Assembly (NCBI GenBank): GCA_947367115.1
Contig: CANBCW010000022.1
Location: forward strand, 1-33,805
From: an uncultured Clostridia bacterium
Lineage (GTDB): Bacteria; Bacillota; Clostridia; Oscillospirales; Oscillospiraceae
Direction of reading: 5' to 3'
DNA: 33,805 nt
The notes below the pieces were generated by a model. It saw only the letters and a list, made by a program, of their open reading frames with translations. It did no database searches and was not told the DNA's origin. This document shows positions 5,079 through 20,319 of the stretch, piece after piece. Positions within the stretch are counted from its first letter, which is position 1. The number at the start of each line of letters is the position of its first letter. A program made the position numbers and the translations under genes.

Positions 5079-5928
5079 TTATTCTGCCAGCGTGTCCGCA
5101 AGGGTGCGTATAGACCGGCGGTAGCTTTGGTTGAGGCGGCACATATACTCCGGCTTTCCGTCGAACCGGCCTGTCTCCGCGGCGGTAACAGCGGCGCAGT
5201 TGGTGCAGGTGCCCCGCAGCTCACATTCCCTGCAGTCCGGGCACAGGCTGATGGCGGCGGTCTTTTCCACGATCTCCTCCCACGCCCCGGTAAAGCCCTG
5301 CTCAAAAGGCCGCGCTGCGGGCGTATTGAGCATACCGCAGGGTGTCATGCGTCCATCCCATGTGATCCAAAACTGGGAACGACCGGCATAGCAGGCCATC
5401 GGATCCCCCGGCTCCATGGAGCAGCTCATGCTGATCTCGTCCCCGGTGCCCAGCCCCGCGGCGATGCGCCGAACCTGCTCCGTCGCCGCACAGCGTTTCG
5501 TAGCCCGCGGCCGACGCGCCGTAAACCGTAACATTGACCATAGCAGGGGGCAGCCGCCGGAACAGCGCCCGCAGCCCATCATCCAGCAGGCTTCCATTGG
5601 TGTTGATAGAGATCGAGAGCCCCATTTTTGTCAGTCCGGTATAGATCTCCTCAAAATCCGGGCGCAGAAACGGCTCTCCACCGGTGAGCAGCAGGAACAG
5701 CAGCCCCGCGTCCCGCGCCTGGCGGCCCATTTCCAGCCATTCCAGCGCCGTCCGCTCCCGACCAATGGCGGTCATCTGCTGGGGGGTCATGCGGATGTAG
5801 CACATTTTACACCGGAAATTGCACCGGGGGGTCAGCTCAAAAGCACCGCTGATGGGAACCGTCTGCAAAGCCGCTCTTGCGCTAAGCACCTGTTTGATTT
5901 GATAAACCTGATCCATAAGCAAACTCAT
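5079..5928 (-). pseudogene. Radical SAM protein (SPASM-like C-terminus), frame-shifted and apparently internally deleted
   Basis: Frame 1 (5302-5928): MSLLMDQVYQIKQ...FELTPRCNFRCKMCYIRMTPQQM...LTGGEPFLRPDF...VNVTVYGASAAGYETLCGDG. Then another frame (from 5079-5597): EQVRRIAAGLGTGDEISMSC...CYAGRSQFWITWDGRMTPCGMLNTPAARPFEQGFTGAWEEIV...CPDCRECELRGTCTNCAAVTAAETGRFDGKPEYMCRL. Combined ~283 aa. Confidence 0.7.
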
Positions 5929-6013: not shown

Positions 6014-6286
6014 TTAGGATGTAAACGCCATATTGGCGCTGGTATGATAGCAGATCATATCCGTGTCTTTGGCAAAGCTTCCATGGATGCTGCAGCCGGC
6101 ATCCCAGAAATAGCCCTGCATCGCCAGGGAATAAACATGGCTGTAGCCCAAAGTTGCCTTGTCGCTGTCTGTTTTTACGCACTCGCTGCTGTTCATGCCG
6201 ATTTTCAGATAAGAACAGGCGGAAATCTGTTGGGTCAGGGCAAATTCCTCTACGGCAAATACCGGCTTGATGTAGGTTTTTTTCAT
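6014..6286 (-). CDS. 90-aa RiPP-precursor-like peptide with four Cys
   Basis: ATG at 6286 with AAGGAGGT upstream: MKKTYIKPVFAVEEFALTQQISACSYLKIGMNSSECVKTDSDKATLGYSHVYSLAMQGYFWDAGCSIHGSFAKDTDMICYHTSANMAFTS. ATGA overlap with the upstream gene's stop; followed by a radical SAM gene, with a PqqD-like gene in the same operon. Confidence 0.7.
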   Translation of the reverse strand: MKKTYIKPVFAVEEFALTQQISACSYLKIGMNSSECVKTDSDKATLGYSHVYSLAMQGYFWDAGCSIHGSFAKDTDMICYHTSANMAFTS

Positions 6287-12783: not shown

Positions 12784-13053
12784 TTATTCCTCGATCAGCA
12801 GACCATAGTGCCGGAACACAGCCAGCAGCTCCGCAAGATCTGTCCGGGCTACCTCCTCAGGTACATCGTACTCATCCAGCAAGGCAGCCAGCAGCGTATC
12901 CTCAGTCTGCTCCGTCTTCAGCAGATTAAAAATAAACACGCCGGTTTCATTCATTGCCGCGATTCCGCTGAGCTTTGCCGCCACAGCCCCCGTGGGCACG
13001 GCGATCTTCTCCCCCAGGATATCGCGCAGGCAGAAGCCCTCCACGATCCTCAT
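12784..13053 (-). CDS. PqqD-family RiPP recognition element protein
   Basis: MRIVEGFCLRDILGEKIAVPTGAVAAKLSGIAAMNETGVFIFNLLKTEQTEDTLLAALLDEYDVPEEVARTDLAELLAVFRHYGLLIEE: PqqD/RRE-like (..G..L..I.GE..VVP.G...G...LNETG..I..LL...). Confidence 0.85.
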   Translation of the reverse strand: MRIVEGFCLRDILGEKIAVPTGAVAAKLSGIAAMNETGVFIFNLLKTEQTEDTLLAALLDEYDVPEEVARTDLAELLAVFRHYGLLIEE

Positions 13054-13299: not shown

Positions 13300-14679
13300 T
13301 CATTCCGCTCTGGCGATCCACTCCAAATTCATGGCGCGTTCCTTCTCCGTTTCAGCGCCCTTCTTCCACTGGTGGAATTCATTGATCATGGCCTGTTCCA
13401 CATGACGGCGGTTCTTGACACGTTCCGCATCATCACACGGCGTCTTATTCGGGCATTTTTTCAGCCTGAGGCATTCCGGATAATAAAAGCAGCCGGCGCA
13501 TTCCGCAAACTCCTCGCGGCGCTCTTTCCAGCTTTCCGGCAGCACCTGATCCCGCTGTGTGGAGTCGATACGCCCCACAGACTCACTATCGGAGAAATGT
13601 ACGCACCGACCGATCTGGCCATCCGGCATAACGGTCATCGCGCTTTCGTTATCCGCCATACAGCAGTTTCCGGGCAGCTCTCTTTTCAGCCGCCGGTCAT
13701 TGATCAAACACAATCCACCGGCAATCAGCTTATCCTCTAACCGGTACTGCAGCTGCCGCAGCTGCTCCCATGTCTCCAAGTCGCTGCGCTGCGCCTCGGG
13801 CGATTTATTGTCAACGATGACGTGCGGATATACTTTCAAATTGCTTTTCCCCGCGAATCTGGCAGACAGCTCCCCGCACAAAGCCGCCAGATCCTCCGCG
13901 TTGCGGAAGTCCACATTCAACCGGATAATTACCATAATACCCGCATCCAACAACCGGGCAATATTGCCGGTCACCACCCGGTAAGCGCTGCCTTCCCGGT
14001 AAATAAACGCCTTATAGCGGTTATAGACCTCCTCTGTGCCGTCCAGGGTGATCTGAACCCATTTCAGCTTCCAGCTTTCCACTGCCTTTTGAACCAATTC
14101 ATCATTGAACAGGTATCCATTTGAAATCATTGAGGAGCGGAACGCGACTCCGTTTTCCCGGAGTCTGTCGCAGATCAGATCGATCGCCCGGTAGTTATAC
14201 AGCGGCTCGCCGCCAAACCAGTCGATCGCAACGTCCTTCCCGCCGCAGTTTGCAATTATAAAATCCGCTGTTTGGAGAGCGGTCTCATCGCTCATGGGGA
14301 TCCGGGAGCGTCCCAGCTCATAGCAATAAAAACAGCGCGCGTTGCAGTCGGTAGTCGTAAGAATGGTGTAATCGGTAATCCCCTTCGACTCTTTGCGCAT
14401 GGTTTTGTGTATCCAGCGCACCAAGCCAACCATTTTTTTCTCGTCCGTTTCCTCCGGAACAACAAACCAATGATCACGCAGATACTCCGATTCCACCGCA
14501 GCGGCATACTCTTCCCGCGTAAGCAGGAGCAGCTCCCGCGTCAGCACATTGAACAGCAGCACGCCGTCCTCCACCTGCTGAGCCATACAGTAACGGATCA
14601 TGCGGTAGCCGGAGCTGCCGCGTTTTGCCTTGCCCAAGATCTCCATAATGGTTTGATTGGCTCTGATGATTTGTTCCAT
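13300..14679 (-). CDS. Radical SAM/SPASM peptide maturase-like protein
   Basis: 459 aa; DYTILTTTDCNARCFYCYELG (CxxxCxxC), WFGGEPLYN, VQITLDGTEEVYNRYK; Cys-rich C-terminus ECAGCFYYPECLRLKKCPNKTPCDD. Confidence 0.85.
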   Translation of the reverse strand: MEQIIRANQTIMEILGKAKRGSSGYRMIRYCMAQQVEDGVLLFNVLTRELLLLTREEYAAAVESEYLRDHWFVVPEETDEKKMVGLVRWIHKTMRKESKGITDYTILTTTDCNARCFYCYELGRSRIPMSDETALQTADFIIANCGGKDVAIDWFGGEPLYNYRAIDLICDRLRENGVAFRSSMISNGYLFNDELVQKAVESWKLKWVQITLDGTEEVYNRYKAFIYREGSAYRVVTGNIARLLDAGIMVIIRLNVDFRNAEDLAALCGELSARFAGKSNLKVYPHVIVDNKSPEAQRSDLETWEQLRQLQYRLEDKLIAGGLCLINDRRLKRELPGNCCMADNESAMTVMPDGQIGRCVHFSDSESVGRIDSTQRDQVLPESWKERREEFAECAGCFYYPECLRLKKCPNKTPCDDAERVKNRRHVEQAMINEFHQWKKGAETEKERAMNLEWIARAE

Positions 14680-14867: not shown

Positions 14868-17800
14868 TCAGGCAACCACCGTGATGGGAATGGCGATCGA
14901 CACCGGGGTGCTGAAGGTATCACCGTCGGCACCGGTGAGGGTCACGGTAATGGTCACGTCGCCGCTGCTTACAGCAGTGACCGTGCCGTTCTCCACCGTT
15001 GCCACACTGGCATCGGTAGTTCCCCAGGTCAGCTGGCAGTCCGTCACAGCAACACCGTTGACGGTGACGCAGAACGCCAGTTCCGCCGACTCCGCCGCGC
15101 TCAGCTCCGTCACGCTGGGCGTGATATTCAGAGATACCGTCTTTTCAGAAACCACTTCGCTGAAACACCACAGGCTGGTGGGCGCATAGCTGTACAGGCC
15201 CGCCGCATTGTAGTTTCCGCCGCCAAGCTGGTTCAGGTAGTAGTTGGTGCTGCCGGAAGACTTATTCGTGGGGTAAATGGTGAAGGTCTTGGCAGCAGAA
15301 TTGTACAAGCTCACCTTGTCGAAGATGTTTGCTTCGTCAACGGTGCCAAGCGCCACCTGATTTGAGGAATTGCAGACCAGATAATTGTCCGAGCCGACGG
15401 ATGTGCCGTAGAGCAGATGCGTTCCGTCGAAGTACCACACCGGAGCATCATTCAGGTCAAGGCCGGAGACGAGTTTCAGTCCCTGCGTGCCATTCAGACC
15501 GTGGTAGTCCGCATCGGTGGTGTAAACCATCGTGCCGGTCAGCGCAGCACCGGTGTTGCTCTCCGTGATCACATAGGGTACGCCGGTCTGCAGGGAATCG
15601 GTCTTGACCAGCTTTCCTTCCTGCACCACCGTCACAGAGTAGCCCGCGCCGCCCGCGTCGGTGACCCGCACGGTGATATCCAGGCAAAGTGCTTCACTCA
15701 GGGCTCTGCCATCGGCTTCCGTCAGTTTCACGGTAATGACCGCTTCACCGCTGTTATTGGCGGTGATCACGCCGCCGGAGCTGACGACTGCCACATTTCC
15801 GTCCGAGCTGCTCCATGTCAGGGTATAGTCGCTGACGGTTTTTCCATCCACCGTCACCACAGGAGCCACCGTAACTGTCTCGCCGGAACCGAGCGCAACA
15901 TTGCCGGGCGCAGCGCTCAGAGACACCGTCCGCTGAGGCAGCAGCCGGTTGAAGTGCCACTGGCTGTAATAAGCGCTGGAATACAGGCCCACCACATTGT
16001 AATTGCCGCCGCCCAGCTGGTTCAGATAGCTGGTGCTGGTGGCCGGAGCCATGGTAAAGGTGCTTCTGGACGTACTGTACAGTGCCACCTTATTGATGAT
16101 ACCCGCTTCATCGGAAGTGCCCAGCGCGACCTGATTGGAAGAATTATAGACCAGATAGCTGCCGTTGGCGCTGCCATAGCGCAGGTGCGTTCCGTCATAG
16201 TACCAGACAGGCGCGCTGTCCAGCTCATAGCTGGAAACGGTCTGCAAGCCCTGCACACCATTGAGTCCCTTGTAGCCGGAGCTGGTGGTATAGAGCATGG
16301 AGCCGGTCAGCGCGGCACCGCTGTTCCATTCCGTGATGACATAGGGAACGCCGGTCTGCAGGCTGCTGACACGCACAAGCTCCGCGTCCTGAACAGTGGA
16401 AGCGCTGATGGTACTCATGTCCACTGTCAGAGGGATCTTCACGCTGATCGGTGCGGTCAAGGCGCGGCCGCCCGCCGCTGTCAGCGTTGCGGTCACGGTG
16501 ACCTCCCCCGCCTTCAGCGCGGTGACGGTACCGTCCGCACTGACCGAAGCGACAGCGCTGTCACTGCTGCTCCAGCTGAGCGTATATCCATCCACAGCCA
16601 CGCCGTCCAGCTTGACCTGGGGTGTCAAAGTCATCTGACCGCCGGTCAGAATCGTGTCCTGGGGAGGTGTGACCGTCAGCGTCACCGTCTGCTCGCCCAC
16701 CAGCCGATCCAGATGCCAGTAGCTTCCGCCAGCAGAGCCGTAGGCCGTTGCGACAAAGTCGGAGGCCGTACCGCCATAGCGGTTCAGATAGTGGGTCGTT
16801 CCGCGGATCGCGAAATCATCACCGGAGTAGTGGGACACATACGCGGCGGTGGCTGCGTTGTAGCTGCCCAGCTCCACCACGCCCTGACTGCTGGAATCGC
16901 AGGAAATCAGCAGATACTGGTCGCTGTCCGCAGAGCCGTAGACCAGATTGCCGTCCTTGATGTACCACAGGTAGGCGGTATCCACACTGGGCTCACCGTC
17001 CAGCAGATAGCCCTTGTGGGTCTTGCTGCCGGATACCTTTTCGGCATACTCGGCGGTCAGCACATAGTGCAGCCAGGAATTCTTGTAATCGGAGATAATG
17101 TATGGTACGCCCTCCTCCAGCTCGGAGGCAGAGTCCACCCGATCCAGATAGGCTTCCGTCTTGCCGGTGGCGGTGGTCTGGCTGTTCAGAGCCGTGGCGG
17201 TGTAGGTTGCGGTGTAGGTTGCCGTCCCGGTGACCGTCGACACAGTGGGAGACCAACCGGCAAAGGTATAGCTGTACTGGCTGTCCGAAGCACGAACCGG
17301 GTCAGCGGGCGGGGTAGGCATCTGTCCATAGCTGACCGTACCGCTCTGCAGCACCGTACCGTCCCAATCGGCAAAGGTGATGGTGTATCCATTGGGCACC
17401 CACTGGGCGTACAGATGCACCACATCCCCATCCACCGCAGTGGTTTTCGCCACAACAGTCTGATCCTTGTAAACATACTTGGTGTAGCCGGAGGGCTGGC
17501 TGCCCTCAGCGTACCATCCTTCAGAGCTGCCATTGACGTAACGCCACTGACCCTGAGAGGAACGGTAAGCCGTCCAGCCCGCGAAGGCATAGCCGGTTCG
17601 GGTGAAGGAATTGCTCCGCAGCTTCGTATTGGTGCCGTAGGTCACTTCGGTATCGGCCATGGTGCCGGTGCCGCCGTTGGCATGATACTGGATGGTATAG
17701 GTAGGCGCGCTGGTGGGCGCATCCACCGGCAGCGTTTCAAAGGTATAGTCATCAAAGCTGGAAATACCGTCGTGGTTGGTATCGGAGGTAGTTTTACGAC

Positions 17801-18698
17801 GGTTCGTGCTGAAATACAGCTTGCCGTCCGTGGGACAGATATCGCAGCTTTCGATCTCAAACAGCGCGGAGTAGGCACCGCTGGTCACGCGGAACACCAG
17901 TACCTCCGTGGGATAGATGGTGCCGGCCGCATTGGACAGGTCGTAAACCATGATCACACTGCGGTTGAGATTGCTGCTGTCGCCGGTTACGGGGACAAAC
18001 AGCGTGTCCTTGTAATAGCCGAAGCCCTGATTCACATAATCACTCAGATCCACATACGAGCCTTTGATATAGACTCTAGCCTTGCTGATGGTGCAAAGGT
18101 AGGTCAGCTCAATATTGGCGCTGGTGGCACTGGTGCTGACGGAGCCGGTATAGAGGTTCATGCCCAGCTTGGTGATGAAGGTGATGACACCATTGGACAC
18201 GCTCTTAACCGCCAGAGCGGTGGCACAGGTCTCGGCACCGTTGTAGGTCAGGCTGTAGCTGGCGACTTTGGTCAGATTATTGCCCGAACGCTTCAGCCGC
18301 ACGATGGCGTTGCTGCCGGAATTGGTGGTAGCAACGAACAGGTTGGAGTAGCCATCAATGCCCCAGACATCCATATCATTGGCATGCCCCAGGTAATCAA
18401 AGTAATAGCTGCCCGCGTCGGCGTTGTACAGCTTGGTCGTGGTACCGGTGTCTTTATGGGTCATGGAGATAAAGGCACTGGTATTGCCGCTGTTAATCTT
18501 GACTGTGTACATGTAAGTAGAGCCGACCGCAAGTCCCTGCATGCTGGGGCAGGAGCCATAGTCATAGACCTTGCTCACATCAGTATAGTCTCCGTAAAAG
18601 TCGTTGACGGCATAGGCCTCAGGCGGGATAGCAACCAGCATCACCAGAAGCACTGCCGCAACCACGCAGGAAACCAGCCGTTTCATCATCTTGTTCAT
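14868..18698 (-). CDS. Large secreted repeat protein (1276 aa): signal peptide, InlB/Flg_new-like repeats, three tandem ~230-aa modules each ending in a Big_2-like Ig domain
   Basis: MNKMMKRLVSCVVAAVLLVMLVAIPPEAYA...; YTIQYHANGGTGTMADTEVTYG...YAFAGW; repeated ...SLQTGVPYVIT(E)...LNQLGGGNYN...TVSL...LTWSSSD..VA.V...G.VTA...GEVTVT. No obvious LPXTG. Confidence 0.8.
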   Translation of the reverse strand: MNKMMKRLVSCVVAAVLLVMLVAIPPEAYAVNDFYGDYTDVSKVYDYGSCPSMQGLAVGSTYMYTVKINSGNTSAFISMTHKDTGTTTKLYNADAGSYYFDYLGHANDMDVWGIDGYSNLFVATTNSGSNAIVRLKRSGNNLTKVASYSLTYNGAETCATALAVKSVSNGVITFITKLGMNLYTGSVSTSATSANIELTYLCTISKARVYIKGSYVDLSDYVNQGFGYYKDTLFVPVTGDSSNLNRSVIMVYDLSNAAGTIYPTEVLVFRVTSGAYSALFEIESCDICPTDGKLYFSTNRRKTTSDTNHDGISSFDDYTFETLPVDAPTSAPTYTIQYHANGGTGTMADTEVTYGTNTKLRSNSFTRTGYAFAGWTAYRSSQGQWRYVNGSSEGWYAEGSQPSGYTKYVYKDQTVVAKTTAVDGDVVHLYAQWVPNGYTITFADWDGTVLQSGTVSYGQMPTPPADPVRASDSQYSYTFAGWSPTVSTVTGTATYTATYTATALNSQTTATGKTEAYLDRVDSASELEEGVPYIISDYKNSWLHYVLTAEYAEKVSGSKTHKGYLLDGEPSVDTAYLWYIKDGNLVYGSADSDQYLLISCDSSSQGVVELGSYNAATAAYVSHYSGDDFAIRGTTHYLNRYGGTASDFVATAYGSAGGSYWHLDRLVGEQTVTLTVTPPQDTILTGGQMTLTPQVKLDGVAVDGYTLSWSSSDSAVASVSADGTVTALKAGEVTVTATLTAAGGRALTAPISVKIPLTVDMSTISASTVQDAELVRVSSLQTGVPYVITEWNSGAALTGSMLYTTSSGYKGLNGVQGLQTVSSYELDSAPVWYYDGTHLRYGSANGSYLVYNSSNQVALGTSDEAGIINKVALYSTSRSTFTMAPATSTSYLNQLGGGNYNVVGLYSSAYYSQWHFNRLLPQRTVSLSAAPGNVALGSGETVTVAPVVTVDGKTVSDYTLTWSSSDGNVAVVSSGGVITANNSGEAVITVKLTEADGRALSEALCLDITVRVTDAGGAGYSVTVVQEGKLVKTDSLQTGVPYVITESNTGAALTGTMVYTTDADYHGLNGTQGLKLVSGLDLNDAPVWYFDGTHLLYGTSVGSDNYLVCNSSNQVALGTVDEANIFDKVSLYNSAAKTFTIYPTNKSSGSTNYYLNQLGGGNYNAAGLYSYAPTSLWCFSEVVSEKTVSLNITPSVTELSAAESAELAFCVTVNGVAVTDCQLTWGTTDASVATVENGTVTAVSSGDVTITVTLTGADGDTFSTPVSIAIPITVVA

Positions 18699-18739
18699 AA
18701 ATGACTCTCTCCTTGGTCAGAATATGATTTTACACATAC

Positions 18740-18768
18740 AGCATACCAGCATTGCGCACTTTGTTCAA
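18740..18768 (-). promoter_or_regulatory. Putative promoter for the 14868-18698 gene
   Basis: Minus strand TTGAAC, 17-nt spacer, TATGCT. Confidence 0.4.
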
Positions 18769-18928
18769 GTGGGCGAAATGTACGATTTTCCTTCGCGTTT
18801 TTTGTTGCAGAAGCCAACTTTCCTATCAAAAACGCCTAATTCTCCCCATGATCATTCCACTCATACTCGCTGGTAAGTACTGTGACCGGCGCACCGAATG
18901 CCCCACACCATCAGAACATGGCTGATGG

Positions 18929-19016
18929 CGTTCAGGCGGCTGCCTTGGGGCGTTCAGGCGGCTGCCTTGGGGCGTTCAGGCGGCTGCCTTGGGGCGTTCA
19001 GGCGGCTGCCTTGGGG
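18929..19016. repeat. Four perfect 22-bp tandem direct repeats
   Basis: cgttcaggcggctgccttgggg at 18929, 18951, 18973 and 18995, no mismatches. Confidence 0.97.
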
Positions 19017-19022
19017 TAAGAC

Positions 19023-19052
19023 TTGACAAAATGAGTTTTTGGGGGTTATAAT
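19023..19052 (+). promoter_or_regulatory. Consensus sigma-A promoter for the 38-aa peptide gene
   Basis: TTGACA (19023-19028), 18-nt spacer, TATAAT (19047-19052). Confidence 0.8.
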
Positions 19053-19101
19053 AAAAAAGTACACCCAGCCAGTTATATCATGATATGGAGGAAAGCGTAC
19101 C

Positions 19102-19218
19102 ATGAAAAAAGCTTATTTGGAAGCAGAAATCCAGATCGTCCATTTTGAGACAGAGGATATCATTTCTACCAGCGACAAGCTGGATGAGGACGAGCTTCCG
19201 CTGATTCCTGCGGGCTAA
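19102..19218 (+). CDS. 38-aa short peptide, RiPP-precursor-like (not in the ORF track)
   Basis: RBS ATGGAGGAAAG then ATG at 19102: MKKAYLEAEIQIVHFETEDIISTSDKLDEDELPLIPAG*. Flanked by its own promoter and terminator; N-terminus resembles the 6014-6286 peptide. Confidence 0.75.
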   Translation: MKKAYLEAEIQIVHFETEDIISTSDKLDEDELPLIPAG

Positions 19219-19276
19219 GCCGGAATAATTGAACGAAGAAAAGAGCAGACCGATACGGTCTGCTCTTCCCCCTTTT

Positions 19277-19307
19277 CCCCGCCATCTTCGGATGGCGGGG
19301 ATTTTTT
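19277..19307 (+). terminator. UUCG-loop intrinsic terminator, preceded by a 12-bp hairpin at 19241-19267
   Basis: ccccgccatc-ttcg-gatggcgggg then attttttac; upstream aagagcagaccg-ata-cggtctgctctt. Confidence 0.9.
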
Positions 19308-20319
19308 ACGCAATACTGCTCCACTGCCAATCTGCCGCCCACCGGCGGTACTGCGAAACCGAAATCTCCAACCGGCGGCGCAGCCCATCCTCCCGCTTCA
19401 GGAAGGTGCGAAAACAGTCCGTCAGCGCGTCCTCCCGCTTTAGCGCCCCCACGCTGACCACCGTTTCCTGCCAGGAGCCGAACAGCATGCGTGCAATCCC
19501 CTGTGCACGGCTGCTAGATCCAACGCACAATCCCGGCACACCGCAGCTCCATGCCGCCAACGCCCCGGCTGTTCCCACACAGCAGCGGCACAGGGACAGA
19601 TCCCCCCGCAGCACCCGGCAGTCCCCATCCTCCCGGCGCAAGATCCGATCATTTTTCCCAAATTCCCTTTCAACGGCGGTAAGGAACAGACAGTCATTGC
19701 AGCATGGCTTGACGCAGTATGGAATCAAGGCGATCTGCATTGCGGTATTGTCCAAAAGCCAGCGAATCAGGTGGCAGAAGCTGCGGTACAGCAGTCCCTG
19801 CGATGCTTCAAACCGGCACACCGCCGGGCTCAGACACAGCCCCACCGTATCCTTCCGAAACGCTCCCCGCAGCGGGCGAAGCTGCCGCTCCACTAAAAAG
19901 GCCGGATCCGGCCCCAGCCGGACATTTTTCTCCAGCCCTGCGGTGTGAAGCGCCTCCAGGCTTCTCCTGTCCGGCACGATCACCGCATGAAACCGGCTCA
20001 GCTCCCGGGCGGATCGTCGTCCGATGCGCTCTGCCCCCGGTGTCCAACCCCAGAGAACCGTCCGTGTTCCCCGGCGCAGCCTGTCCACGCCGGCAGGCTG
20101 TGCTGTCACGCACCAGTCCCCCGACCCGATGCACCGCTCCGGCACCCCTGAAATGTGGCGGGTCAGGCCAGCCACCGCCCCCAGCCCATAGTGCCAATCT
20201 TCCTCCAGCCCCATTGAAAAAACCTCCGGACGCTCCGGCAGCACCCGGCAGATGCCCCGGATCCGATCCTCGCTGCCGTGATCCCCGCTGCCACCATGTC
20301 CCAAGAGATAATACCCCAT
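19306..20319 (-). CDS. Polysaccharide pyruvyl transferase-like (CsaB-type) protein
   Basis: MGYYLLGHGGSGDHGSEDRIRGICRVLPERPEVFSMGLEEDWHYGLG...; start 20319 preferred (GGAGG upstream) over the longer track ORF, whose extension overlaps a terminator. Confidence 0.6.
   Translation of the reverse strand: MGYYLLGHGGSGDHGSEDRIRGICRVLPERPEVFSMGLEEDWHYGLGAVAGLTRHISGVPERCIGSGDWCVTAQPAGVDRLRRGTRTVLWGWTPGAERIGRRSARELSRFHAVIVPDRRSLEALHTAGLEKNVRLGPDPAFLVERQLRPLRGAFRKDTVGLCLSPAVCRFEASQGLLYRSFCHLIRWLLDNTAMQIALIPYCVKPCCNDCLFLTAVEREFGKNDRILRREDGDCRVLRGDLSLCRCCVGTAGALAAWSCGVPGLCVGSSSRAQGIARMLFGSWQETVVSVGALKREDALTDCFRTFLKREDGLRRRLEISVSQYRRWAADWQWSSIA

Follow-up and report, generated by a model that had tools for sequence, protein, structure and literature searches.

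Four perfect copies of a 22-bp sequence stand in front of a consensus sigma-A promoter and a gene for a 38-aa peptide. The question which this locus raises is whether the repeats are iterated operators, with a copy number that may tune peptide expression, as the original prediction had it, or a minisatellite beside a promoter which does not require it. The locus lies in a window of 33,805 nucleotides, by which we mean the whole stretch of DNA analyzed (contig CANBCW010000022.1 of assembly GCA_947367115.1). The host, an uncultured gut bacterium, belongs to the Faecousia group of Oscillospiraceae, its closest SecA sequences being those of Oscillospiraceae MAGs from 'Lapin' samples (84%) and of Candidatus Faecousia (79-80%). 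The assembly, a draft in 157 contigs which is 87.8% complete, is probably a MAG, as are its closest relatives. In such a metagenome bin the array could be an artefact with a wrong copy number or a chimeric join, and copy-number errors are common at repeats. However, the array of 88 bp is shorter than a typical read, the terminator and promoters around it form a coherent set and the peptide belongs to a genuine family, and we hold an assembly artefact to be highly improbable.

The repeat array and its promoter

The copies of the unit CGTTCAGGCGGCTGCCTTGGGG (18929-18950, 18951-18972, 18973-18994 and 18995-19016, + strand) are identical. TRF called the array at 18927-19016 with 4.1 copies, 100% matches and a score of 180, starting at 18927 rather than 18929 because the preceding GG continues the array register. 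Head-to-tail order, a unit longer than 10 bp and high identity are the features by which minisatellites are recognized, and all three are present here. Six base pairs (TAAGAC) separate the array from TTGACA at 19023-19028, which is followed, after an 18-bp spacer containing TTTTTGGGGG, by TATAAT at 19047-19052. The four copies and the promoter (+ strand, 12 of 12 consensus positions) were thus confirmed exactly as predicted, and no other site in the 33.8 kb of the window reaches 12/12 on either strand. Relative to the start site, predicted at about 19059, the array would extend from about -43 to -130. The peptide MKKAYLEAEIQIVHFETEDIISTSDKLDEDELPLIPAG is encoded at 19102-19218 (+ strand) behind a GGAGG ribosome-binding site, and a strong intrinsic terminator with an 11-bp stem and a T run is predicted at 19276-19301 (+ strand), with a second perfect hairpin just 5' of it (about 19244-19270). 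These predictions agree with the claim that the promoter drives the peptide, whose gene has the appearance of a short monocistronic unit. The promoter itself looks constitutive and not activator-dependent, because both its -35 and -10 hexamers are already perfect.

The unit has a GC content of 73%, compared with 36-45% in the surrounding intergenic region. The array matches itself exactly over 68 bases at period 22, which cannot be due to chance, because upstream of 34 other peptides of the same family, three of them in the host's own genome, no tandem repeat was found and exact self-matches at periods of 8-79 reached at most 14 bases. Zero divergence had been taken to imply either recent expansion or active homogenization. 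The lack of differences over 66 comparable sites is in accordance with a young array, but its upper 95% bound is about 4.4% divergence per site and therefore homogenization of the copies is not implied. Just before the array lies a 7-bp inverted repeat, CCATCAG-N7-CTGATGG (18908-18914 and 18922-18928), which ends exactly where the array starts.

The array could also act through its structure, as a cruciform, slipped hairpins or a G-quadruplex affecting supercoiling, promoter melting or replication. Each unit carries one GGGG tract on the + strand, which makes four tracts at 22-bp spacing, with a further GGGGG at 19041-19045 in the promoter spacer. The + strand of the array folds slightly better than shuffled sequences (z = -2.0) and a hairpin with a 4-bp stem is possible in each unit. 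Loops of 18 nt would, however, leave any G-quadruplex weak, the - strand folds as its shuffles do (z = 0.2) and the hairpin of a unit is worth only about -3 kcal/mol, all of which makes a structural or insulating element quite improbable. Three other candidates were rejected. The + strand frames are open across the array because the unit has no stop codons, but the small ORFs which result (18882-19019 and 18898-19026) have no plausible ribosome-binding site and the 22-bp unit shifts the frame, which argues against coding sequence. A structured RNA is contradicted by the lack of any Rfam match and by the location upstream of the predicted start site, and a CRISPR-like array by the lack of spacers.

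Occurrence of the unit and conservation of the locus

Allowing up to two mismatches, the unit occurs in its own genome only as the four copies of the array, and hence at none of the other short-peptide genes near which the original prediction proposed to search. Neither the 84,980 species genomes searched nor the viral contigs of IMG/VR gave an exact match to the 22-mer, though the own or very near genomes were possibly left out of these sets. The genus was represented by 136 species genomes including the host's, one genome per species. No array of the 22-mer was found in the 135 congeners, which contain isolated near-matches with 2-3 mismatches in 10 genomes (12 sites, compared with 4 for reversed-pattern controls). 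The unit is therefore not a common dispersed repeat, a reading which the original prediction had named as one possible refutation. Phage or plasmid origin was likewise set aside, as no match to 18780-19330 was found in phage or plasmid records. We estimated the repeat content of the host from sampled stretches of about 525 kb (24% of the genome), in which this is the only perfect array with a period of at least 13 and at least three copies; sequences of relatives, about 0.7 Mb in all, contained none. The remaining arrays of high identity and 2.5 or more copies in the host sample and the relatives have periods of 9, 12, 15, 18 or 36, which are divisible by 3, as would be expected inside coding sequence.

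The region in which the array lies is divergent. On the other side of it a large secreted protein with Big_2 and Flg_new repeats is encoded at 14868-18698 (- strand). The only full-length relative of this gene within the genus is that of the genome G010 (69% identity in amino acids, about 70% in nucleotides). The similarity extends through the divergent promoter to 18789 and then stops, and the corresponding locus of G010 has neither the repeats nor the peptide. The predicted promoter of the secreted-protein gene, TTGAAC-N17-TATGCT (18740-18768, - strand), falls inside the conserved 18700-18789. A conserved block common to G010 (18763-18789, AAAATCGTACATTT.GCCCACTTG) lies upstream of and extends into the -35 of the secreted-protein gene, and is a possible operator of it. 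Partial relatives of the gene in G058, G049, G027 and G084 (the last with a doubtful start) have no array in about 420 bp upstream. Judging by these comparisons, the array sits in an unconserved, lineage-specific part of the intergenic region. A role of the array for the secreted-protein gene is unlikely, because this stretch is not conserved and is more than 150 bp away from the divergent promoter.

For the peptide promoter, in turn, an iterated operator would mean a regulator which binds each 22-bp unit cooperatively upstream of the -35 and activates or represses, with copy number tuning the output. The position of the array would suit such a role, as would the perfect identity of its copies, a weak dyad in every unit (AGGCGGCTGCCT, 10 of 12 bases complementary) and the restriction of the unit, within its own genome, to the peptide promoter. 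The period is indeed near two helical turns, as had been argued for copies facing the same side of the helix, but at 10.5 bp per turn each copy is rotated by about 34 degrees and the four copies by 103 degrees. Moreover, the unit is absent from all paralogous peptide genes, from other promoters and from the related locus in G010. In the only operator class compared, the LytTR type, the best 9-mer match is 7/9, which 61% of shuffled units also reach. The perfect consensus of the promoter also speaks against an operator, and it would be uncommon for a regulator to have just one target, of four copies. The claim of iterated operators thus finds no backing at other genes, and we consider it unlikely. 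Its more specific form, in which an iterated operator confined to this lineage sets, through its copy number, the dose of a RiPP-like precursor made from its own strong promoter, we consider improbable.

The peptide and its family

The window peptide has no Pfam match, its leader motif was not found in a search of the literature, and no NCBIfam family covers the family peptides (best E = 0.035). In the family alignment a leader of about 24 aa is conserved (consensus MKK.[FY].EPE.EI..F..EDVITTS) while the tail, which is DKLDEDELPLIPAG in the window peptide, is variable. A loose search, in which some matches are weak, found family peptides in 36 of 136 Faecousia-group genomes, about a quarter of the species. 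Their lengths are 28-72 aa across the genus (e.g. L077, L079, L080, L081, L082 and L042), and three further members are present in the host's own genome (two on contig C33 and one on C13). Upstream of 34 other family peptides no perfect consensus promoter was found, and with a tandem repeat in front of only 1 of 35 members a family-wide association of repeats with the peptide is refuted, while an association confined to the window peptide is compatible with this count. Several tail types are shared: DEDELPPV.., FNGGA.H, GSGDS.DF.D.FPGL and NPNCENEGPAGDAFL. The last is found at L042 (G010:C8, about 538-1650), where five successive family peptides have different leaders and nearly identical tails. 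A lipoprotein adjoining the G030 peptide (L077:8867-9283, - strand, the same as L006:1056-1472) ends in DDDELPPVPVG, close to the tail of that peptide, LDEDELPPVVIG. As the two end nearly alike, a tail of this kind may serve both proteins as a signal for processing or sorting.

A PqqD (PF05402) protein is encoded within 5 kb of 15 of the 36 family peptides, compared with 0.49 expected at random, the list of 36 having been chosen by eye from the family search, with one added from C33 and weak matches included. The neighbors further include radical SAM/SPASM proteins, NTP_transf_5 proteins, ABC transporters and a P-loop protein which is HprK-like by eye and has no Pfam or NCBIfam match. The window peptide is about 6 kb (6.3 kb) from its own PqqD-family peptide-binding protein (12784-13053), which is encoded on the opposite (-) strand, and 4.4 kb from a radical SAM protein resembling peptide maturases (13300-14679, - strand). 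Two features expected of RiPPs are therefore found: the alignment of 35 members gives a conserved leader and a variable core in a short ORF, and linkage to RRE/PqqD and modification enzymes holds at the level of the family. Because the family clusters with PqqD-type RiPP recognition proteins, the peptide is probably an unclassified RiPP-like precursor and a candidate for a new family, and it is probably chemically modified.

Elsewhere in the window, a radical SAM gene at 5079-5928 (- strand) seems to be split in two, with ORFs at 5302-5928 and 5079-5597 which overlap and are read in different frames, and this suggests a frameshift or an assembly error. It is adjoined by an ORF for a Cys-containing peptide of about 90 aa (MKKTYIKPVFAVEEF..., 6014-6286, - strand). 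A similar peptide of G050, MKKEYQKPDFVFEDF... (L080:16570-16869), precedes both a family peptide and a gene for a radical SAM protein.

The preferred reading and known systems

We favor, with a probability of roughly 0.6, the reading of the array as an intergenic minisatellite, young and specific to its lineage, which lies beside the strong sigma-A promoter of a RiPP-type peptide and is not required by it. Slippage during replication, or recombination, would have turned a single GC-rich 22-bp unit, itself capable of a small hairpin, into four copies within that part of the divergent intergenic region which is not conserved. The adjoining promoter would make a short monocistronic mRNA for the peptide without needing the array, and the conserved N-terminal leader of the peptide would be bound by the PqqD-like protein, the C-terminal core or tail being variable. 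We infer the slippage origin, the dispensability of the array for regulation and the modification of the peptide. Two points speak against the minisatellite reading: perfect identity and a distance of 6 bp from a perfect -35 would likewise be seen in a control array under selection, and such arrays are rare in the host's own genome, where a general tendency to slippage is thus not demonstrated. Tuning of peptide expression by the copy number of the array is possible. As one more intergenic minisatellite the array is of modest importance, placed where an effect could matter, and it would matter if its copy number proved variable and changed peptide output. The peptide family is of wider interest, as it consists of short leader-bearing, PqqD-linked peptides with exchangeable tails outside the NCBIfam families.

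LytTR-type operators (AgrA/ComE/PlnC) of peptide genes are direct repeats with a period of about 21-22 bp just upstream of the promoter. The window array is likewise made of direct repeats at such a period upstream of a peptide promoter, but it has no 9-bp box above chance, four copies instead of two and a perfect -35. With PqqD/RRE-dependent RiPP clusters (NCBIfam lasso_PqqD, HPr-rel-A PqqD; radical SAM maturases) the locus shares short leader-bearing precursor-like peptides and the kind of gene neighbors, namely PqqD, radical SAM, NTP_transf_5, HprK-like and ABC genes, although the PqqD and radical SAM matches are here below the curated cut-offs of the named NCBIfam systems. In Neisseria a TAAA tract upstream of the nadA promoter tunes expression through the spacing of regulators (PMC2791445; reviewed in PMC3899988). 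Both are tandem arrays in front of a bacterial promoter, and a change in copy number could in principle alter how many regulator sites there are or how far apart they stand. The nadA tract, however, is a 4-bp microsatellite with shown copy-number variation, NadR and IHF sites and measured changes in expression, while the window array has a 22-bp unit and is known here from a single sequence without an assigned regulator. The nadA tract can serve as a precedent for tuning by promoter arrays and not as evidence for the array described here. The closest likeness is to intergenic minisatellites (unit >10 bp; PMC3899988), with which the array shares perfect head-to-tail copies, a single locus, an intergenic location and lineage specificity. 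No defining difference from them was found, and the sole special point of the window array is the 6 bp which separate it from a perfect -35.
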